Assembly (NCBI GenBank): GCA_024692825.1 | Contig: JAILMB010000098.1 | Span: 1 to 51,963 of the forward strand | Direction: 5' to 3' | DNA: 51,963 nt | From: Lachnospiraceae bacterium | GTDB taxonomy: Bacteria > Bacillota > Clostridia > Lachnospirales > Lachnospiraceae | Shown here: positions 29,165 through 40,732 of the stretch, one piece after another | Layout: each line of letters begins with the position of its first letter | Position numbering within the stretch: the first letter of the stretch is position 1 | Notes under the pieces: model-generated | Told to the model about the DNA's origin: nothing | Databases searched by the model: none | What the model saw: the letters and a program-made list of their open reading frames with translations, nothing else | Program-made: the position numbers and the translations under genes

Positions 29165-31516
29165 CTACACTTCTTCCATGAAATATAATCTCGCATTGTG
29201 ATCTTTCATGATACGAACATTTCCTTCCATATCAAATCCAGTGGATGCAAAAGCGGGTTTTAAGCCAACTCCTGCATTCATAAGAGCATTACCATAAGCC
29301 TCATAATCCTCTTTGTCACCCTTTGGTGTCACAAACTTATCAATAAGGTTATGTAAGAAACCATCCTGCTTTACATGGACTGGTACCGCTCCATTGATTA
29401 AATCTCCAAAGGTTTTAATGGAAACCTTACTTTCATTGCTGTAAAAATGATACTTCTTCAAAGGGTCAAGACCATAGGCATGATAATCCAAGAATGGTTT
29501 GTTTGGCTGAACTTCCTTTTGGAAAATCATACCAACTGCCTGCTTTTTATCCTTAGACACAACGGTCCACTCTACTACATTTCCAAACTTTCCTCTGTAG
29601 AAATTTCCAAACTGCATACATTCACGGAACTTCTTATAAATCTCTATCTGAGATTTAATTGCAGTCAAATCTTCTTTTTTCATATCAGAAAGATTGCATT
29701 CATATCCTAAGACTCCAAAAGAAGCCACTGCAAATCGAGAGTCAATTGGTACCCGTCGCAAGGTCTGATGGTTTGGTACGTTTGACACATGAGCAGATAC
29801 GCAAGACATTGGATATCCATAGGAATATCCGTTTTGAATAGAAAGTCTGGCAATCGCATCCGTATCATCTGATGCCCAGATCTGTGGGAAATAGCAAAGA
29901 GCTCCTAAATCAAATCGATTTCCACCAGACGCACATCCCTCAAATAGTACATGAGGGAAACGCTCTGTTAAAGCTTTTGCCAACTGATAAAATCCCATAA
30001 TATATCGATGGAACACTTCTCCTTGTGCATCAGCTGCTAAATGCTGTGAATACACATCAGAAAAGATACGGTTCATATCCCATTTTACATAGGCAATATT
30101 TGCAGATGAAATCACCTCGCACATTGCTTTTGTAATGTAGTCTACTACCTCTGGATTGGCAAAATCTAAAATTCTTTGATTTCGGCCTTCCGAATGTGCT
30201 TTTCCAGGAATCTCAATGGACCACTCCGGATGCGCACGGTATAGTTTTGAATCTACATTCACCATTTCCGGTTCAATCCAAATACCAAAATCAAGGCCGA
30301 CTGCATTAATTTTTTCCGCTAATCCTTTTACACCACGAGGAAGTTTTTTCGTATTTACAAACCAGTCCCCAAGTGCGCGTTTGTCATCATTTCTTTCACC
30401 GAACCATCCGTCATCCATAACGAAAAGTTCAACGCCCACTTCCTTCCCCTTTTTCGCCAAGGCAACAAGCTTTGACTCGTTAATATCAAAGTAATTTGCT
30501 TCCCAGCTATTCAAGAGGACCGGTCTCGCTTTTTTTGACCATTCACCTCGAACAATGTGATTGTTTACAAACTCATGCATATTCTGACTCATGCCATTAT
30601 GTCCTTCTTTTGAGAAGGTCATAACAGATTCCGGAGCTTCAAACTCATCGTTTGGCTTTAAATTAAAACTAAACTGAGTTGGATTTATACCACAAACCAC
30701 ACGGGTTTTATCGTATGCATTTACTTCTACTGCTTCATAGTGATTTCCTGAATAAACCAGGTTAAATCCATAGCAATCTCCCTGATGCTCTGCTGTTCCA
30801 GGACGGGAAATCATAATAAATGGATTTGCACGGTTAGATGAAGAACCGGTAAAGGATGAATTTACAAACTTACCTGCCTTTACCACGGTATCAACCATCT
30901 GCATTTCTTTAATCCATGCACCTCTAAAAGTAGAAACCGTAAGGCCAGCTTCATTATAATCAATCTGTGTCGACATCAGTCTCTTTAATTGAACCGTAGC
31001 TGAACTTGTATTTACAAATTTCGCACAACGGGTAATCACATCTTCCTCTTCATATACAAAGTAGGAAAGAACCAATGTGTATCCATTATTTTTATCCTTT
31101 AAGGTAACATGTAATCCTTCTACATTATCACCAAAGGAAGATGGAAGAGTTTTTAACTCTTCCTTTCCTTTTTTAATCTCATCAGAATCATAAACAAAAT
31201 CTGTGGTTGCACTTCCATCTGCTGCCACTACTTCAACGAAAGGTTCTCTAATATCACCCTTTCCATAGCCAGATGTTTCAAGGCAAACATCCTCTAATGT
31301 AAATGACAAATGCTCCTGGTCATAGGCAATGGAGTTTCCCTGCTGAAAGGCTCTCTTTTCTGAAAGTGCTTCCAAATCAGATGCTTCATTAACAGTAATT
31401 TTAGCACCATAGTAAAGATGCTCTAACTGACCTGTCTCCATGACCTTGAAAGCATAACTGGTATTCTTTGTATCCAGCACAAATGCCGGATAATCTCCGT
31501 TTAACTTTCGAATCAT
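29165..31516 (-). CDS. Alpha-galactosidase (GH36)
   Basis: FVMDDGWFGERNDD, YVKWDMNRIFSD, FEGCASGGNRFDLG, IWASDDTDAIARL. Confidence 0.93.
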   Translation of the reverse strand: MIRKLNGDYPAFVLDTKNTSYAFKVMETGQLEHLYYGAKITVNEASDLEALSEKRAFQQGNSIAYDQEHLSFTLEDVCLETSGYGKGDIREPFVEVVAADGSATTDFVYDSDEIKKGKEELKTLPSSFGDNVEGLHVTLKDKNNGYTLVLSYFVYEEEDVITRCAKFVNTSSATVQLKRLMSTQIDYNEAGLTVSTFRGAWIKEMQMVDTVVKAGKFVNSSFTGSSSNRANPFIMISRPGTAEHQGDCYGFNLVYSGNHYEAVEVNAYDKTRVVCGINPTQFSFNLKPNDEFEAPESVMTFSKEGHNGMSQNMHEFVNNHIVRGEWSKKARPVLLNSWEANYFDINESKLVALAKKGKEVGVELFVMDDGWFGERNDDKRALGDWFVNTKKLPRGVKGLAEKINAVGLDFGIWIEPEMVNVDSKLYRAHPEWSIEIPGKAHSEGRNQRILDFANPEVVDYITKAMCEVISSANIAYVKWDMNRIFSDVYSQHLAADAQGEVFHRYIMGFYQLAKALTERFPHVLFEGCASGGNRFDLGALCYFPQIWASDDTDAIARLSIQNGYSYGYPMSCVSAHVSNVPNHQTLRRVPIDSRFAVASFGVLGYECNLSDMKKEDLTAIKSQIEIYKKFRECMQFGNFYRGKFGNVVEWTVVSKDKKQAVGMIFQKEVQPNKPFLDYHAYGLDPLKKYHFYSNESKVSIKTFGDLINGAVPVHVKQDGFLHNLIDKFVTPKGDKEDYEAYGNALMNAGVGLKPAFASTGFDMEGNVRIMKDHNARLYFMEEV

Positions 31517-31569: not shown

Positions 31570-33012
31570 TTATGCGTTTTCGCGTTTTGCTTTTAATTCA
31601 TCAGAAATCTCAACAAGCTTTTCATCTGTTAAGATATATCTCTTCTTAAACCAAAATACTGCGAAGATTAATACAGCAATTGGAATCAAAGACATTACAA
31701 GACGAAGTCCCATCTTAGAAGCCATATCAACGCTAGCTGCAAAATCAACTGTCTGATCAGCCTCTGTAGTAGCTGCATCACTTAAATGGAATACAGATAA
31801 AGCGATAGATGCAATAAATGCTGCAAGTCCTGATGCAAGTTTAACTACAAATGTCTGCATTGAGAAAATAACTGATTCATCACGACGGTTGTTCTTTAAT
31901 TCACCATAGTCTACCGTATTTGCTAAGAATACAGTAACAATAACGTTATTCATACCAGCAGTAGCCATGATTAAAATACCTGGAAGTAATAAAGGAACAA
32001 TGTTATTAGTACCTATAGTAGCCAATACTAAAAGAACAATATATCCAACTATCGACATTCCTGCACCGATATAGAAAATCTTAATGTTGTTAAAGAACTT
32101 TCTAAGTAAAGGATATAAAAGCATCATAGAAAGAATCTGTACACCACCACCAACAGTGTTAAATAAGGTGTAGTTGTCATACCAGGTTGCTCCACCAAGG
32201 TCATACTTAAAGAAGTAAAGTACTAGGTTTGAAGTAATATAAAGTGCTGTATTAATGCAAACGATAGTAACTACTACTGTCATAGCCTGATCATTTTGAA
32301 TCAATGCTTTAAACATTTCGCCAACAGTTGCTGTCTTCATATCTACAGAAGATTTTTCTTTTACTGTTACACAGCAAATTACAATAAATACAACGAATAA
32401 AACTGCAATAATAAGAGCAAGATATTTGAAACCGTAAAGTTCTACCTGTTTTGCAGTTGCATCTGCTCCACCAGTTGCCTGTCCTAAAGCCTGTACCACT
32501 TTGATAGCAAAAATAGAAACAAGTGCAGAACCAACACCAGCGCAAGAACGGGCTAATGTTGTAAGTCCTTCTCTTTCCTTACCACCTTCAGTGAATGCAG
32601 GAATCATTGACCAGTAAGGGATATCCATCATAGTGTAAGTAACACCCCAAACGATATAAAATACTGCTGCATATGCTACCAATCCACTGCCGGAAAGTGT
32701 TGGAGGGCAAGCAAACATCAAGTACAGAATAATAGCATTTGTAATAGTACCAATTAAAAGCCAAGGTCTGAATTTACCCCATTTGGTTTTTGTCTTAGCT
32801 ACTAAGACACCCATGATTGGATCGTTAAATGCATCAAATACACGGGCAACTAAAAGAATTACACCCATAATCCATGCTTCTACGCCTAAAATATCCTGAT
32901 AGTAATAAAGGATATAACTTGCTGAAAGCATATATACCATATCTTTTCCTACAGCACCCAGGCCATATCCAAGCTTTGAAGCGCCTGTTAGTTTCATTTT
33001 TTCTTCTGCCAT
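31570..33012 (-). CDS. GPH (glycoside-pentoside-hexuronide):cation symporter family transporter
   Basis: KLGYGLGAVGKDMVYMLSASYILYYYQDILG, RVFDAFNDPIMG, TKTKWGKFRPWLLIG. Confidence 0.92.
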   Translation of the reverse strand: MAEEKMKLTGASKLGYGLGAVGKDMVYMLSASYILYYYQDILGVEAWIMGVILLVARVFDAFNDPIMGVLVAKTKTKWGKFRPWLLIGTITNAIILYLMFACPPTLSGSGLVAYAAVFYIVWGVTYTMMDIPYWSMIPAFTEGGKEREGLTTLARSCAGVGSALVSIFAIKVVQALGQATGGADATAKQVELYGFKYLALIIAVLFVVFIVICCVTVKEKSSVDMKTATVGEMFKALIQNDQAMTVVVTIVCINTALYITSNLVLYFFKYDLGGATWYDNYTLFNTVGGGVQILSMMLLYPLLRKFFNNIKIFYIGAGMSIVGYIVLLVLATIGTNNIVPLLLPGILIMATAGMNNVIVTVFLANTVDYGELKNNRRDESVIFSMQTFVVKLASGLAAFIASIALSVFHLSDAATTEADQTVDFAASVDMASKMGLRLVMSLIPIAVLIFAVFWFKKRYILTDEKLVEISDELKAKRENA

Positions 33013-33043: not shown

Positions 33044-34549
33044 TTATTTGTTTTTTAACCCCATGGCAATTTCTACAACCTTGTATGCACCATCGTACAT
33101 ACCGATTGAGTTGTTAATCTTGATATTTTCACACATTTCATTCAAAAGATCTGTATTCATAAAGAGATCTAACATCTGAATGGTATGTGGGATATCCCTA
33201 CATTCTAATGAGCCATCACCGATTTCTGCTGAGTGGATTGCTCCCCACATTTCATGCTTTCCAACTCGTTTAATAAAGAGTTTTGGAATCGGATAAAATG
33301 CTAATTCAGAAGGTTTTGTAACAAGTACATCTGCGCTTCTCATTAAAAGATTGGTACAGTAAACTGCATCAAAAATATTTTCATGCCAGAATCCGTGGAT
33401 TCCTTCTACTTCACCATCAATAGCTTCTTCTGCAAATTTTGTTGTAGCTTCAAAGTCATTGAAATGTTCTTTTGAAACTTCCTTCATTCCAGGAATTTCA
33501 GCTACTAATTCATCCCAAACGTTTTTGTAATCACCAACGTTTACGTAAAGAGCCGCTTTTCCTGCGTTGATCATAGGAAGTAAATATTCGATAATTGCAG
33601 CAAAGATTTCCTTTTGTGCTCCTGCTCCACCAATGGTAAGTAAAAATCTCATTGGCTTTCCTGAAGCTTTTCTATCACATCTCTTCTTACAATCTTCTTC
33701 AATGTTTGCTACGAGTTCATGATCAATATAATGGCCGGTGTAAACCAGTTCATCCTGAGGCATTGGTTTACAAACCTTATCCTTCATCATACCGTTACAA
33801 ATACGATATCCCATATAGGCATTTCTACACTGAATGGTATGGATAGAACCTTCTGCAAAATGAAGGGCCATTGGCCAGTTATCACAAACTGCAGATACCA
33901 CATTTTTCATTCCTGCATGAAGAGCTGCCTGAGCAGTCCATGCATGGGTAGAAATTACTGGAATGTCCTTTGGTACATTTCTATATACAGGAGCCATAAG
34001 TTCTGCATTTGCCTGATCGTTTGAGTTATATGTCAAAGCACGGAAACCTTCATAGTTCATAGGCTCCCAAACAAGCTTATTGAAAATTGGATTCTTTGAT
34101 AAACGACTTCCCATAGAGTACAAATCATTTTGAGCACCAATAATCTTTGTACAAGTTGTTTCGTAGTAAGAATTCAAATCCATCCAATAAGGAGTGTATC
34201 CCATGTGATGTGCACAGGAAGCCATTGCCATAGACATACGATAATGGCCAAATCCCATACGAATATTTCCAATAATTACTCCTTTTTCATTGTCCCAAAC
34301 AGGATCCGGAAGCGTACCATCCGGATGTTTTGATACATCAAAATGTGCATTCTGCTTCAGGTCTCCAACTAAGACATTTTGTACGCCTAAAGAATCCCCA
34401 ATATAAGCATTCTTTTCCAAATGAATCGGATAGTTTACATTGGAATCATCACCAAACTTCTTTGCACTTTTTGCTTTGGTTTTCATGGCTTTTTTGTACT
34501 GAGCTTCGCCCAAATCATTTCCAAAAATAACCCTTGATCTGTCTTGCAT
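33044..34549 (-). CDS. GT-B-fold glycosyltransferase-like protein of unknown function
   Basis: 501 aa; GNIRMGFGHYRMSMAMASCAHHMGY, LLTIGGAGAQKEIFAAIIEYLLP and SADVLVTKPSELAFYPIPKLFI resemble MurG/MGDG-synthase-type GT-B landmarks. No family name assigned with confidence. Confidence 0.7.
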   Translation of the reverse strand: MQDRSRVIFGNDLGEAQYKKAMKTKAKSAKKFGDDSNVNYPIHLEKNAYIGDSLGVQNVLVGDLKQNAHFDVSKHPDGTLPDPVWDNEKGVIIGNIRMGFGHYRMSMAMASCAHHMGYTPYWMDLNSYYETTCTKIIGAQNDLYSMGSRLSKNPIFNKLVWEPMNYEGFRALTYNSNDQANAELMAPVYRNVPKDIPVISTHAWTAQAALHAGMKNVVSAVCDNWPMALHFAEGSIHTIQCRNAYMGYRICNGMMKDKVCKPMPQDELVYTGHYIDHELVANIEEDCKKRCDRKASGKPMRFLLTIGGAGAQKEIFAAIIEYLLPMINAGKAALYVNVGDYKNVWDELVAEIPGMKEVSKEHFNDFEATTKFAEEAIDGEVEGIHGFWHENIFDAVYCTNLLMRSADVLVTKPSELAFYPIPKLFIKRVGKHEMWGAIHSAEIGDGSLECRDIPHTIQMLDLFMNTDLLNEMCENIKINNSIGMYDGAYKVVEIAMGLKNK

Positions 34550-34576: not shown

Positions 34577-37012
34577 CTACTTAGGCATTACGCTAACGTG
34601 GAATTTAATTTCCACAGTTGCTGCGCTCTCACAATGAATACGAAGGGTTGCATCCCCTTCTTCAAAGCAGGATTTTACATAGATACCTGCCATACCGCCT
34701 CTAAAAGGCACTACCTTTGGTCCGATGATTTCGATTGGTCCCTCTGTTTCTAAAAGCATAGCTTCCTGGAAATAAGGTAAAATATTTTTATTTTCATCAG
34801 AAGCAACCACACGAACCGATGCCACATCATAGGTATTTGTTTCTATTAATTCATTGGAAGAAACATCTACGCCAAGCATTACCTTTGTCATTGGTTTCTT
34901 CACAACTGACTTCACTACTTTTCCATCTTTAACGGCATCAAATCGATAACTCTTTGACTCGCCGCCCCAATCGCCAATGTACTTCTGGAATAATCCAACC
35001 GCATCATTCATTGACATATGATGGAATAAAATCAAGCGAAGAGCTGCCCAAATAACCTTTGGTGTCATCTTATATCCATGGATGGCAGTTTCATTTAAAC
35101 AAATCTTTACAAGTTCGTTTTGTTTTGCTGAAAAGCCTTCGTTCTTCATCATTTCATCGCCGATTAAATCGTCGATTACCACTGGTCCGTGTTCCAAGTG
35201 AGGGAACAAATCAGAATGGGTATCGTATTCTTTAATCAATAGATTGTTCTTATACATACGAACGGAATCTGCATTTGAAATAATATAGGTATCTCCTCTT
35301 ACAGATGCAGGATGTTCTCCAATATCCATAGAAGTAGTTACTTCTAAAACATCCTCATCCTTCCCCTGAGCCGCATACACAGCCGCAGCCATCTTTGGAT
35401 TTCGAAACATATCCATTACTCCGTGGTAACAAATACGATCTCCCGAACCAAAGTCTTTATGAGTGTTGTAGTCAAACATACACCAGGCAAAGGAACCAGC
35501 TATATCTTCATAAGAATTTACAGACTCTAGTACTCTTGCATGACGAAGGGTATGTTCCATACGGTGTTCTTCCCAGTCGAAGCTCTTTGTAGGATACATA
35601 TGTCCGTTGTATTCAGAAATCAAATAAGGTTTTTCTACATCGCTGGTTACCTTATCCTTTGCTTCACAACCTTCATTTTTGCCACTGTGTACAAAGTCGT
35701 TATAAGTGTATACATCTTCTAAAAGATTCATTTTCTTATAGCAACGTACGCCACCGGTTTGACGGGTAGGATCACATTTATGAGCCACTTCATTGGTTCT
35801 TTCATAAAACTCATCGTCGTCCTGGGATTCATTGATACGTACGCCCCAAAGAATAATGGATGGATGGTTACGATATTGTTCTACCATCTCTCTTGTATTC
35901 TTTACTGCAATATCCTTCCATCTTTCTCCACCAATATGCTGCCATCCTGGAATCTCAGTAAATACCAAAAGTCCCAAACGATCGCACTCATCAATAAAGT
36001 AATGAGACTGAGGATAGTGAGAAGTACGAACTGCATTTAATCCAAGTTCTTTTTTCAGGATTCTTGCATCCTGTCTCTGCATCGACTCCGGCATTGCATA
36101 ACCAACATAAGGATAAGACTGATGACGATTTAATCCACGAATCTTTACCTTACGGCCATTGAGGTAGTACCCGTCTTTTTTAAATATGGAATGACGGAAG
36201 CCCACCATAGAAATATTGGAATCCTTCACTTCTCCATCTACTAAAATCTCTGTTGTAAGCTGATATAAGGCAGGACTTTCCACATCCCAAAGCTTAACGT
36301 TTCCTGCTAAGGTTTTCGTAAGTCCCTTTGCAGCCATAGGCTGTTCTGAAATTTGCTTATCATTTAAAATCTGTCGAACGCTAAGACGTCTATCTTCTGC
36401 TAACGCTTTTGCTTCATCAGATAATTCAATTACAGTTGTTAACTGTCCAGGTACCTCTAAGTCAGCAATCTCCTCTGAGCTTTTACCGGAAACCGTAATT
36501 CCCTCATCCACCTTTGGCATAAGGAAAATATTTTTCATATATACCGGATCTTTAATGTCCAAATATACATCTCTATAAATTCCACCATAGGTCATGTAAT
36601 CAATTACAAATCCAAAAGGAGGTTGATCAATCTCTTCTTTTGAATTCACCTTTACGGTCAGCAAATTATCAATGTCATAACGAATTTCATTGGTAATATC
36701 TACTGTAAACGCAGTATATCCACAGAAATGTTCATAAAGCTTCTTTCCGTTTAAATACACTTCACTCTGATGTCCAACACCGTCAAAGGTTAAAAGGAGA
36801 CGCTTTCCCTGCCACGCCTCATCCGGTACAATCAATCGCTGATAGCCGCAAATCATCTGATAAGACGACTCATCGAAATAATGAAATGGCACTTCCTTGC
36901 AAGTATGTGGAAGATTCACTTCTGTTCCGTTCTCCATAAAAGATGAAAGCATCTCTTCTGAAAAAGTCTCATTAAACTTCCATTTTCGATCAAAATATAT
37001 TCTCTGACTCAA
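34577..37012 (-). CDS. Glycoside hydrolase family 2 protein (beta-galactosidase/beta-glucuronidase-like)
   Basis: GVGHQSEVYLNGKKLYEHFCGYTAFTVDIT, RGLNRHQSYPYVG, NAVRTSHYPQSHYFIDECDRLGLLVFTEIPGWQHIG, NHPSIILWGVRINESQDD. Confidence 0.9.
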   Translation of the reverse strand: MSQRIYFDRKWKFNETFSEEMLSSFMENGTEVNLPHTCKEVPFHYFDESSYQMICGYQRLIVPDEAWQGKRLLLTFDGVGHQSEVYLNGKKLYEHFCGYTAFTVDITNEIRYDIDNLLTVKVNSKEEIDQPPFGFVIDYMTYGGIYRDVYLDIKDPVYMKNIFLMPKVDEGITVSGKSSEEIADLEVPGQLTTVIELSDEAKALAEDRRLSVRQILNDKQISEQPMAAKGLTKTLAGNVKLWDVESPALYQLTTEILVDGEVKDSNISMVGFRHSIFKKDGYYLNGRKVKIRGLNRHQSYPYVGYAMPESMQRQDARILKKELGLNAVRTSHYPQSHYFIDECDRLGLLVFTEIPGWQHIGGERWKDIAVKNTREMVEQYRNHPSIILWGVRINESQDDDEFYERTNEVAHKCDPTRQTGGVRCYKKMNLLEDVYTYNDFVHSGKNEGCEAKDKVTSDVEKPYLISEYNGHMYPTKSFDWEEHRMEHTLRHARVLESVNSYEDIAGSFAWCMFDYNTHKDFGSGDRICYHGVMDMFRNPKMAAAVYAAQGKDEDVLEVTTSMDIGEHPASVRGDTYIISNADSVRMYKNNLLIKEYDTHSDLFPHLEHGPVVIDDLIGDEMMKNEGFSAKQNELVKICLNETAIHGYKMTPKVIWAALRLILFHHMSMNDAVGLFQKYIGDWGGESKSYRFDAVKDGKVVKSVVKKPMTKVMLGVDVSSNELIETNTYDVASVRVVASDENKNILPYFQEAMLLETEGPIEIIGPKVVPFRGGMAGIYVKSCFEEGDATLRIHCESAATVEIKFHVSVMPK

Positions 37013-37022
37013 ATCATCACTC

Positions 37023-37580
37023 CTAACTGTTCACACTAATACCATCAATTAAAAGATCTACCAAATGATGCAACGCATCCATATAATTTATCTTGTTATC
37101 TTCAAGTTCACTTCCATTTAAGAATCTTTCTAGAGAAGACTCATACACCATCTGAAAAATCGTAATATTTACTGGTCGAAAAACCCCTTCTTCCACACCT
37201 TGATTCAATAGTGCAATGGTGTAATCCCAACCACTTTCAATACGATCTGCAATTAACGTGTAAGCCTCTGGATATTTGCTTCTCATACTGTATAGCTGAG
37301 TAAAATCCAATCCTGCCACCTGATCTGGCATTACACCTAAAATCTTTCTTAAGCGATCTACTGTGGAAAGATCTGGCTCCTTCATAATCTCTTCTTCGCT
37401 TCTTTTAATAGCATCGAAGGTATAATTCACCATATCTGTAAACAAAGTTCTCTTGTCCGGAATAATGGTATAAATTGTCTTCTTACTCATTCCAAGCTTA
37501 TTTGCTAAATCATCCATAGTGAATTTAGCGCCTTTTTCACGATAAACTTCTAAAGCTGCCTCAACGATTTTTTGTTTCAT
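37023..37580 (-). CDS. TetR/AcrR family transcriptional regulator
   Basis: MKQKIVEAALEVYREKGAKFTMDDLANKLGMSKKTIYTIIPDKRTLF helix-turn-helix. Confidence 0.9.
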   Translation of the reverse strand: MKQKIVEAALEVYREKGAKFTMDDLANKLGMSKKTIYTIIPDKRTLFTDMVNYTFDAIKRSEEEIMKEPDLSTVDRLRKILGVMPDQVAGLDFTQLYSMRSKYPEAYTLIADRIESGWDYTIALLNQGVEEGVFRPVNITIFQMVYESSLERFLNGSELEDNKINYMDALHHLVDLLIDGISVNS

Positions 37581-37604: not shown

Positions 37605-37742
37605 CGTTTCCAAAAAACTTGAAAACTGTTTTTCGTTTCCAAAAAACAAATTCAGGTTTTTAAAGGTTTCAAGTGGAAACTGATTTTTCTAGGAAACTAC
37701 AATTGTATTAATTAGTTTCCTTAATTTTATCATTAGTTTCCC
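37605..37742. promoter_or_regulatory. Cluster of GTTTCC/GGAAAC motifs with a palindrome, putative TetR operator region
   Basis: Direct repeat CGTTTCCAAAAAAC at 37605 and 37634; GGAAAC at 37675; palindrome AGGAAACTA (37691-37699)/TAGTTTCCT (37713-37721); TAGTTTCCC at 37734. Confidence 0.6.
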
Positions 37743-37802
37743 GAAGTGTAAACTCGACACAAGTGCTAAAAACCTCTGTGGTTTTTTGTATGATATTACT
37801 AT

Positions 37803-37836
37803 AAAAAAAGAGCTTCCCCAAAGGGAAGCCCTCTTA
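37803..37836 (-). terminator. Terminator downstream of the DUF5692-like gene
   Basis: AAAAAAAGAGCTTCCCC-AAA-GGGAAGCCCTC stem with T-run on the minus strand. Confidence 0.8.
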
Positions 37837-37867: not shown

Positions 37868-38986
37868 TTATTCAGCTCTAGCCATAGCCTCTTCAAAGTC
37901 CTTAGTTCCTTCAAATACACAGTTAGAATAAGGATTCTTGCCCATTTCGATAGAGCGTTTAATAATAACTGAGATACAAACTACGTTGCATACTAAAGCG
38001 ATGATGGCAACAACACCCTGAGCTGTAGGTTCAGCAGTGATTCCCATAGCTGCCATTGCTTCGTTAGCTGCAGAAGTCTTACCCTGGCCATTTGCATAAA
38101 GTTCAATAGCCTTTGAGTAAAGATCCATAGTTGTAATTCCGTTTTCTGTAGCACCACCGTATACATGAGGAAGTGCTGCTGCGAAAGTACCCTTTAACTG
38201 GAATAGAGGTACGATCTGAGCCCACATACACCAAATAGCAAGTGTGTTTGCACGGTTCTGAATCCAACCACCCTTGTTCCACAAAGCATTTGCAAATGTA
38301 GGAGCAAGTAAAAGTGCAACACCACAATACCAAGAATGTGTAGGAAGGTTCAAGTATGTATACTCGAAGTTCCATGTATCGTATGCAATGATGAACCAGA
38401 TAGTCATATCAGGCCAAAGCATATCGCTCTTGTTCTTGTCCTTAGAAGTGAATAACTTAACGCAACCTGTCATACAGAAGATGTTAATCATTCCTGAAAT
38501 GAAGTTTACGATGTTCCACCATCCGCCATAGATGAATACACCTTCGTTTGAACACCACCAAGCACCGGTGAAGTTTCCAGTGATTCCGTATGCTGCGAAT
38601 GCTGACTCAAGATCAGAAACATTAGCGATCATGATGTTGGCAGCTACGATGAACCAAGGCCACCATTTGAACCATTCATGCTTTCCAAGTCCCTCTTTGT
38701 ACTTGATCATCATGAAACCTACGCATCCGATATCTGCTGCGTAAAGTTTGAAGTAATGGAACCATCCGTCCATGTAAGCAACGGTAGGATTTGATGTTCC
38801 ACCGAATGCACCACAGTGAATTGCAATGAAGTACACTGTTAAAATAGCAGGAATGATTACAAAAATAAGCATTCCGCCGAGTTTTGTGCGACGTCCGATT
38901 TCGTTCATGATAATTAAACCAGCGAAAACGAGGCACCAACCGATGAGCTGCATAGGAGCTGCATCGCTGTAAAGTTGAAACAACAT
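37868..38986 (-). CDS. Polytopic membrane protein, DUF5692-like, unknown function
   Basis: 372 aa, about 9-10 TM, conserved-looking W/Y-rich segments (MDGWFHYFKLYAADIGCVGFMMIKY, GITGNFTGAWWCSNEGVFIYGGWWNI). Family name is from memory. Confidence 0.6.
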   Translation of the reverse strand: MLFQLYSDAAPMQLIGWCLVFAGLIIMNEIGRRTKLGGMLIFVIIPAILTVYFIAIHCGAFGGTSNPTVAYMDGWFHYFKLYAADIGCVGFMMIKYKEGLGKHEWFKWWPWFIVAANIMIANVSDLESAFAAYGITGNFTGAWWCSNEGVFIYGGWWNIVNFISGMINIFCMTGCVKLFTSKDKNKSDMLWPDMTIWFIIAYDTWNFEYTYLNLPTHSWYCGVALLLAPTFANALWNKGGWIQNRANTLAIWCMWAQIVPLFQLKGTFAAALPHVYGGATENGITTMDLYSKAIELYANGQGKTSAANEAMAAMGITAEPTAQGVVAIIALVCNVVCISVIIKRSIEMGKNPYSNCVFEGTKDFEEAMARAE

Positions 38987-39244: not shown

Positions 39245-40732
39245 TTATAGAGTAGATACAAATCTTCTAAATGCCTCTAAACCTTCTTCGCTACACTTAA
39301 AGACACCAGCATCCTCTAATACCTTGCAGAATACGATTCCCACTTCTTTTTGCAGGATTTCTTCTACATTGTCCTTTGTGATGGTGTAGTTTCCTTTGAA
39401 CTCATCCACCCAATCTGCATGCTTTGCAAGAACCTCATCTTTGCGAAGATTCTTTCCGGAAACAATGGCATCTGCCAACTGTTCCAATTCTCCCTTTAAT
39501 CGAGATGGAAGCACTGCTAGTCCCATAACTTCAATCAGGCCAATGTTTTCCTTCTTAATGTGATGAAGCTTTTCATGAGGATGATAAACTCCCAAAGGAT
39601 GTTCCTCTGTTGTAATGTTATTACGAAGTGCCAAATCTAACTCAAATAAGTCACCTCTCTTACGGGCAATTGGAGTAATGGTATTGTGAGGTTCTCCGTC
39701 AGTTTCTGCAAAAACAAATGCTGCTTCATCGGTATAACCTCTCCAGGCACCCAGGATATGATCTGCTAAATCAATGATTCGCTTCTCATCCTTACACTGT
39801 AAACGAATTACTGATAATGGCCATTTTACAATACCACAGGTAACATCTTCATAACCCTTTACACTAAAGGTATCAATAATAGGAGCCTTTTCCATAGCAA
39901 AGGTATAATGTCCACCCTGGAAGTGATCATGGCTTAAAATAGATCCCCCTACGATTGGCAAATCTGCATTTGATCCTAAGAAGTAATGAGGGAATAACTT
40001 AATAAAGTCAAAAAGCTTTACAAAAGTAGCCTTTTCAATCTTCATAGGTGTATGCTGTCCGTTAAATACAATACAGTGTTCATTGTAGTATACATATGGA
40101 GAGTACTGAAATCCCCAATCACTGTCATTGATACGAATTGGAATAATTCTGTGATTCTCTCTTGCCGGATGATTTGCTCTTCCTGCATAACCCTCATTTT
40201 CCACGCAAAGCAAGCATTTTGGATAAGCTGACTGAGGTGCATTTTTCGCAGCTGCAATGGCCTTTGGATCCTTTTCCGGCTTCGATAGATTAATGGTAAC
40301 ATCTAAGGTTCCATAATCTGTATCTACTGTCCATTTCAAATCCTTTTTAACACGATAGGTACGAATGTAATCAGAGGCACGGCTCAATCCATAGAAGTAA
40401 TTTGTAGCTTCCTGCGGGCTTTCCTCATATTTTTCTTTAAATACACGCTGTACCTCTGCCGGACGTGGAGTCAAACAATTCATAAGCTTTGTATCAAACA
40501 AGTCACGATAGACAATGCTGTCTTCGATAATTCCTCTTTGAACTGCTTCATCCAACAAGTCCTTTAACACTTCCTCTAACACGATGTTTGACATATCGCA
40601 TTCAACATCTGTGTACTCATCCTCATGAAAACATTCTAATAATAAATTTGTTGCATATACTCTCTCGCACTCTGGCATCAACCCACTGCTGATTCCATAC
40701 TGAACTAATTTTTTAATGTTTTCGCTTAACAT
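39245..40732 (-). CDS. galT: UDP-glucose--hexose-1-phosphate uridylyltransferase, class II GalT
   Basis: ENHRIIPIRINDSDWGFQYSPYVYYNEHCIVFNGQHTPMKI, GGSILSHDHFQGGHYTFAM. Confidence 0.93.
   Translation of the reverse strand: MLSENIKKLVQYGISSGLMPECERVYATNLLLECFHEDEYTDVECDMSNIVLEEVLKDLLDEAVQRGIIEDSIVYRDLFDTKLMNCLTPRPAEVQRVFKEKYEESPQEATNYFYGLSRASDYIRTYRVKKDLKWTVDTDYGTLDVTINLSKPEKDPKAIAAAKNAPQSAYPKCLLCVENEGYAGRANHPARENHRIIPIRINDSDWGFQYSPYVYYNEHCIVFNGQHTPMKIEKATFVKLFDFIKLFPHYFLGSNADLPIVGGSILSHDHFQGGHYTFAMEKAPIIDTFSVKGYEDVTCGIVKWPLSVIRLQCKDEKRIIDLADHILGAWRGYTDEAAFVFAETDGEPHNTITPIARKRGDLFELDLALRNNITTEEHPLGVYHPHEKLHHIKKENIGLIEVMGLAVLPSRLKGELEQLADAIVSGKNLRKDEVLAKHADWVDEFKGNYTITKDNVEEILQKEVGIVFCKVLEDAGVFKCSEEGLEAFRRFVSTL

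Follow-up and report, generated by a model that had tools for sequence, protein, structure and literature searches.

Galactolipids make up the bulk of chloroplast membrane lipid, and the head group of DGDG is alpha-Gal-(1,6)-beta-Gal-glycerol. Hydrolysis of galactolipids has been reported for Butyrivibrio strains in work from the 1970s on, as summarised in a review (PMC9626764), and PMC8333865 cites the proposal that the lac operon of Escherichia coli serves the use of galactosylglycerols from plant galactolipids (Egel 1979). The sulfolipid counterpart is already well studied, the degradation of sulfoquinovose and sulfolipid in gut and rumen having been followed experimentally, including the sulfoquinovosidase YihQ (PMC12330013, PMC13219744). 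Genes for using the released galactosylglycerols were not described by any paper in the literature searched, and the keyword-matched text of the Roseburia polysaccharide-locus and Butyrivibrio hungatei expression papers had no passage on the operon presented here.

The window is the whole stretch of 51,963 nucleotides of Lachnospiraceae DNA that was analysed; the named records nearest to it, with 91-95% identity, are MAGs of Lachnospiraceae. It contains on its minus strand the gene order TetR > GH2 > DUF6937 gene > GPH > GH36, separated by 10, 27, 31 and 53 nt. The preliminary description had read this order correctly, including the 501-aa open reading frame at 33044..34549, and the gaps span 10-53 nt. 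This frame opens with ATG, and a plausible ribosome-binding site, AGAGGG, precedes the start codon by about 7 nt. The neighbours of the frame, all on the minus strand, were identified with the support of Pfam, NCBIfam and PDB searches. They include a MelB-like GPH cation symporter (31570..33012; TIGR00792, 357 bits; MelB 4m64, E 1.3e-62), a GH36 alpha-galactosidase (29165..31516), in which the motif YVKWDMN marks the nucleophile and WASDDTD the acid/base region and which among solved structures comes closest to AgaA and other bacterial alpha-galactosidases, and a GH2 beta-galactosidase-like enzyme (34577..37012). The TetR-family regulator (37023..37580, minus strand) probably starts at ATG 37580, giving about 185 aa, and the TTG at 37649 in the table of open reading frames is probably a mis-start, because the predicted promoter and operator sit immediately upstream of ATG 37580; the median length of the TetR homologues (188 aa) agrees with this start. 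Ahead of it, in order, are a terminator-like hairpin (37806..37835, minus strand) that ends the DUF5692 gene and lies between it and the TetR operon, a promoter-like site recognised by consensus match only (TTTACA-17-TAAAAT with a TG ahead of the -10; 37724..37752, minus strand) and, immediately downstream of the latter, the predicted TetR operator GGAAACTAATTAATACAATTGTAGTTTCC (37692..37720). A DUF5692 membrane protein is encoded directly upstream of the operon (37868-38986) and was present in 12 of the loci surveyed first, the window included. The Leloir pathway is represented upstream on the same strand by GalT, UDP-glucose--hexose-1-phosphate uridylyltransferase (39245..40732, minus strand; TIGR01239, 691.6 bits), which also has an open reading frame in 12 of the loci surveyed first, again with the window among them.

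The Pfam families DUF6937 and DUF6938 span the 501-aa protein end to end (387.1 and 387.1 bits, cut-off 27). No NCBIfam model matches it, no PDB relative was found by sequence or by profile search, and in the literature searched no paper names DUF6937 or DUF6938 and no biochemistry on the family was found; its earlier labelling as uncharacterised is therefore upheld, and no function has been assigned to the family. The AlphaFold model, built from a 37-sequence alignment, has a pLDDT of 92.9 and a pTM of 0.92. Among PDB structures, Foldseek places the Arabidopsis MGDG synthase MGD1 (4wyi/4x1t) at ranks 1 and 2 (E 5e-7 and 4e-6; TM 0.66 and 0.59, normalised by target length), and nearly all of the top 50 are GT-B enzymes; matches to viral structures are mostly generic glycosyltransferases. 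With hhalign, the DUF6937 profile matches the MGDG-synthase/UgtP homologues with a probability of 92% in local and 97% in global mode, against 0.8% for MurG, 0.2% for GT4 and at most 1.3% for nine unrelated families; as positive controls, MurG and GT4 reached 99% and 98% against the MGDG-synthase set. An origin from MurG or GT4 was rejected on these values. The GT-B fold and the kinship with MGDG synthase and UgtP (GT28) are thus held with high confidence, and what had been called GT-B-like proved to have a glycosyltransferase fold and was narrowed by the profile comparison to a remote relative of these enzymes. The curated models PF06925 and PF04101 do not match the protein, a Pfam scan to E 1 returning DUF6937 and DUF6938 alone, and for this reason it is described as related to the MGDG-synthase/UgtP branch of GT28 and not filed as a member.

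In GT-B enzymes generally, a glycine loop binds the donor diphosphate and a glutamate binds the ribose. The protein does contain the three motifs named in the preliminary description, IRMGFGHYRMSMA, TIGGAGAQ and SADVLVTKPSELAFYPIP, whose cores hardly vary across 108 homologues. The active-site reading given here rests on alignment. In MGD1, His155 of the GxGH motif is the catalytic base (PMC7419546). This motif corresponds to G99-F-G-H102 within G94-NIRMGFGHY-R104 (34238..34270, minus strand), where H102 aligns with H155 and the histidine is kept in 108/108 homologues. MGD1 T151, a DAG contact, aligns with M98, and R156 with Y103. The donor site lies at T411-KPSELAFYPI-P422 (33284..33319, minus strand), with a glycine loop five residues short. 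At this place the sequence is TKPGGLSSTEAAVKGIP, with close variants, in the MGDG-synthase/UgtP proteins and TKPSELAFYPIP in DUF6937; TKPSEL stands in nearly all 108 homologues where the former have TKPGGLSSTEA.....P. DUF6937 retains the Lys, the Glu and the distance from Glu to Pro, whereas the five glycine-loop residues, and with them the diphosphate loop GG(L/I)(S/T) after TKP, are missing in nearly all 108. Four basic residues, R97, R104, K412 and K423, are invariant.

From the alignment, the loss of the loop together with these basic residues makes phosphate or an unusual donor plausible, and the same loss could mean altered or lost catalysis. The latter possibility, a catalytically dead GT-B protein whose role inside the cell is that of a galactoside sensor or a scaffold, would fit the deletion of the donor loop and the lack of any assigned activity, but about 100 residues, among them the catalytic His and many with polar side chains, are invariant at identities down to 44%, the operon already has a TetR regulator, and the gene is retained in genomes without the operon, so that a dead protein is very unlikely. 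The active site bears also on a forward glycosyltransferase, in which DUF6937 would glycosylate an acceptor with the UDP-galactose or UDP-glucose that the Leloir pathway supplies, much like MGDG synthase and UgtP; the acceptors envisaged are diacylglycerol or monoacylglycerol left by lipolysis, glycerol or an imported galactoside. The fold and the kinship with biosynthetic GT28 enzymes favour such a transferase, as do the conservation of the GGAGA loop and of the Glu that occupies the position of the ribose contact; against it, the whole family has lost the diphosphate loop that characterises GT-B enzymes using NDP-sugars, and the DAG-contacting T151 of MGD1 aligns with M98.

The neighbourhood of DUF6937 was counted in 66 loci, each flanked by 6 kb or more in both directions; most of these loci had been selected for their close relationship to the query. 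GH36 was found in 59/66, GPH in 60/66, GH2 in 33/66 and TetR in 49/66, on the same strand and within 6 kb. Loci from genomes drawn evenly across the family and the class gave the same picture, and the association is far above chance. The link to a galactoside operon first noticed in the window is accordingly real and conserved, GH36 and/or GPH standing beside the gene in 64/66 loci; homologues away from glycoside operons are confined to the 2/66 loci with neither gene, one of which (L116) still has the operator of the operon. A consistent place in a catabolic, TetR-controlled operon is unexpected for a biosynthetic enzyme and speaks against the forward transferase. The divergent homologues (L087, L098, L107-L110, L139) adjoin a GH36 of another, short type, either complete or as a fragment, which in the case tested (L110) was closest to TmGalA, and in three loci of these homologues galactokinase is the next gene. 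The pairing therefore persists when the hydrolase, and often the transporter too, is exchanged. A general excess of alpha/beta hydrolases beside DUF6937 was not found (8 loci, partly near-duplicates), these being counted only where the operon or operator is common with DUF6937. In four operons (L061:4013-5494, with the cluster also in L046, L048 and L050) a chemoreceptor (MCP) gene lies between TetR and GH2, which suggests chemotaxis towards the operon substrate.

The DUF6937 family is uncommon, being present in 46/299 Lachnospiraceae genomes, in 15/291 and 17/391 genomes of the class (two overlapping draws), in 5/399 genomes of the phylum and in 0/14 control genomes. Two near-complete genomes of 1.2-1.3 Mb (G432 and G597) have a lone DUF6937 gene (L099 and L100, respectively) and no GH36, and the reaction is therefore not strictly bound to alpha-galactosides. 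The copy in G597 lacks much of the N-terminal extension. No galactokinase was found in the near-complete G432 genome. The retention of the gene in these two small genomes without GH36 would suit a forward transferase, and so would the absence of PF06925 enzymes, none of which were found in the genus of the window. No homologue was found in phage records, and plasmid records yielded one, from the spirochaete Treponema saccharophilum (plasmid pTS2; L087:11998-13479). There DUF6937 is accompanied by GH36, TetR and GPH, about 7 kb from galT-aldose epimerase-galK, and a transfer between phyla is possible.

The sequences upstream of TetR are rich in GGAAAC/GTTTCC half-sites, 188 being observed where 15.7 were expected in 71 entries, two of which spanned whole loci. 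The half-sites form palindromes with a spacing of 16 in 61/76 cases and of 17 in 10/76, and the predicted TetR operator has the consensus GGAAACTANTTTTNNAAAANTAGTTTCC, or about GGAAACT-N14/15-AGTTTCC. Where TetR is not adjacent, the predicted operator lies directly upstream of DUF6937 (L104, L116, L144) or of GH2 (L023, L025).

A scan of the genus found the predicted operator also before one secreted protein in four genomes, including that of the window (L197:4094-4942, on C237 of G000; orthologues in L198, L199 and L202). This protein has a signal-peptide-like start, a GHSLGG motif and a match to the class-3 lipase family Lipase_3, which is weak, scoring above the Pfam cut-off in 2/3 orthologues tested and below it in the one from the window's own genome. 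The lipase promoters of the genus carry a second, less exact copy of the operator in each genome, likewise found at many TetR promoters. In 30 other DUF6937-positive genomes the scan returned 45 operator palindromes against 16 for the reversed pattern, and therefore many matches outside the operons are noise. Sites inside atpA (L235, L236) and other coding regions were discarded as such, and hairpin-like GGAAAC...GTTTCC palindromes near thiolase genes of three genera (L233, L238, L242) were also taken as noise, probably unrelated to this TetR. In a second genus (G922), the predicted operator precedes a secreted Lipase_3 gene (E 4.7e-7). In a third (G789; L226/L246, C7), it lies 31 nt upstream of a glycerol-3-phosphate (G3P) oxidoreductase, the first gene of an operon that continues with a flavoprotein, a 121-aa protein and the glycerol kinase GlpK (723 bits). 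In a fourth (G933), it precedes DUF6937 and an alpha/beta hydrolase, 2 nt apart, and the TetR-GH2-GPH-GH36 operon is located elsewhere under its own copy of the operator. In the genus of the window the TetR and lipase sites both have a spacing of 17, and in G789 the TetR and glp sites both have a spacing of 16. A secreted 378-aa protein of no known family (L229:3194-4330, on C21 of G894) has GGAAACT-N15-AGTTTCC about 155 nt upstream. The lipase and glycerol members of the predicted regulon were found in few lineages; across several genomes, genes for the lipase, the transporter, the cleavage of alpha- and beta-galactosides and the use of glycerol have a predicted operator in common, and a common operator at the lipase, glycerol and DUF6937 promoters is predicted from the sites themselves.

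An ordinary melibiose/raffinose-type operon, in which DUF6937 would modify or sense a soluble alpha-galactoside and the operators at lipase and glycerol genes would be coincidental, agrees with a GPH nearest to MelB, with a GH36 nearest to bacterial alpha-galactosidases such as AgaA and with galK and galT close by in several loci. Those sugars require no GT-B enzyme, however, and coincidence would have to extend to a common operator before the lipase in two genera, the glycerol-kinase operon and the DUF6937-hydrolase pair, as well as to the matched spacings of 17 at TetR and lipase in the genus of the window and of 16 at TetR and glp in G789. This explanation is considered unlikely. Melibiose, raffinose and lactose, the substrates put forward in the preliminary description, are probably not the physiological ones, since the predicted regulon has a secreted lipase and a glycerol kinase, which speaks for galactosylglycerols from plant galactolipids over melibiose or raffinose. 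The galactolipid-substrate hypothesis was set down before the operator scan revealed the lipase.

Here it is proposed, tentatively, that the locus is best explained by a cytosolic GT-B enzyme related to MGDG synthase and UgtP, acting in a TetR regulon that scavenges the head groups of plant galactolipids. In this pathway, the secreted class-3 lipase would strip the fatty acids off MGDG and DGDG, the MelB-like GPH symporter would take up digalactosylglycerol or galactosylglycerol, and GH36 would cut off the alpha-1,6-galactose. The leftover beta-galactosylglycerol would be split by DUF6937, plus GH2 where present; galactose would enter the Leloir pathway (GalK/GalT) and glycerol would continue through GlpK and the G3P oxidoreductase. 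Where GH2 is missing, DUF6937 is the sole candidate within the operon for the cleavage of beta-Gal-glycerol; about half of the operons do have GH2, and in these a second enzyme for cleaving beta-galactosides is not obviously required. That galactolipid head groups are the substrate is regarded as slightly more probable than not.

DUF6937 itself would run an inverting GT28 reaction in reverse, with the glycerol oxygen as the target of His102 and C1 attacked by phosphate or UDP, to produce glycerol and alpha-Gal-1-P or UDP-Gal, by which one ATP would be saved. Both sugar products are intermediates of the Leloir pathway, an outcome that would fit a galactokinase-free genome as well. This phosphorylase or reverse-transferase reading derives from the operon content, the lost diphosphate loop and the basic residues R97, R104, K412 and K423, and it is doubtful, clearly less secure than the substrate, that the reaction runs towards cleavage and takes phosphate or UDP as its co-substrate; the forward transferase described above is almost equally likely. 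It is less probable still that DUF6937 represents a new, catabolic class within the GT28-like GT-B enzymes, one that splits beta-galactosylglycerol with inversion, as a phosphorylase or as a UDP-dependent reverse transferase, and that derives from galactolipid-synthase-like ancestors, in a head-group regulon dedicated to this use in Lachnospiraceae of gut and rumen. If the cleavage reading is true, a GT28-type scaffold would run in the direction of breakdown, which would be a new catabolic use of the fold, and gut and rumen bacteria would feed on the sugar heads of leaf-membrane lipids by means of this regulon. The question can be put to a direct test in Roseburia inulinivorans, Pseudobutyrivibrio ruminis and Butyrivibrio, for which the analysis supplies a defined set of genes together with a predicted operator and a candidate enzyme.

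Compared with plant MGD1 (CAZy GT28; 4wyi/4x1t), the DUF6937 protein has the same GT-B fold, the same GxGH motif with its catalytic His and, in the donor half, the same TK and E/P spacing, but only about 12% identity in the structural alignment, an additional N-terminal segment of about 90 residues, no diphosphate glycine loop and a location in a catabolic operon. UgtP, the processive diacylglycerol beta-glucosyltransferase, and bacterial PF06925 proteins are the only sequence-profile relatives found (92-97%), and they have TKPGG(L/I)(S/T)xxEA or close variants where nearly all members of DUF6937 have TKPSEL. With the melibiose operon, the system has in common a MelB-family GPH symporter and an alpha-galactosidase; what it has beyond that operon is GH2, DUF6937, regulation by TetR and, under a common predicted operator, genes for a lipase and for glycerol use, and melibiose leaves these extra genes unexplained. 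As in the sulfoquinovose pathways, the head group of a chloroplast lipid would be catabolised by gut and rumen bacteria, although the sugar and the enzymes are different and the DUF6937 pathway is a prediction. As in the proposal cited for the E. coli lac operon, a gut bacterium would use the galactosylglycerols of plant galactolipids; unlike lac, the DUF6937 system is a TetR regulon with a secreted lipase, a GT-B protein, a transporter of another family and an alpha-galactosidase for the alpha-1,6 bond of DGDG.
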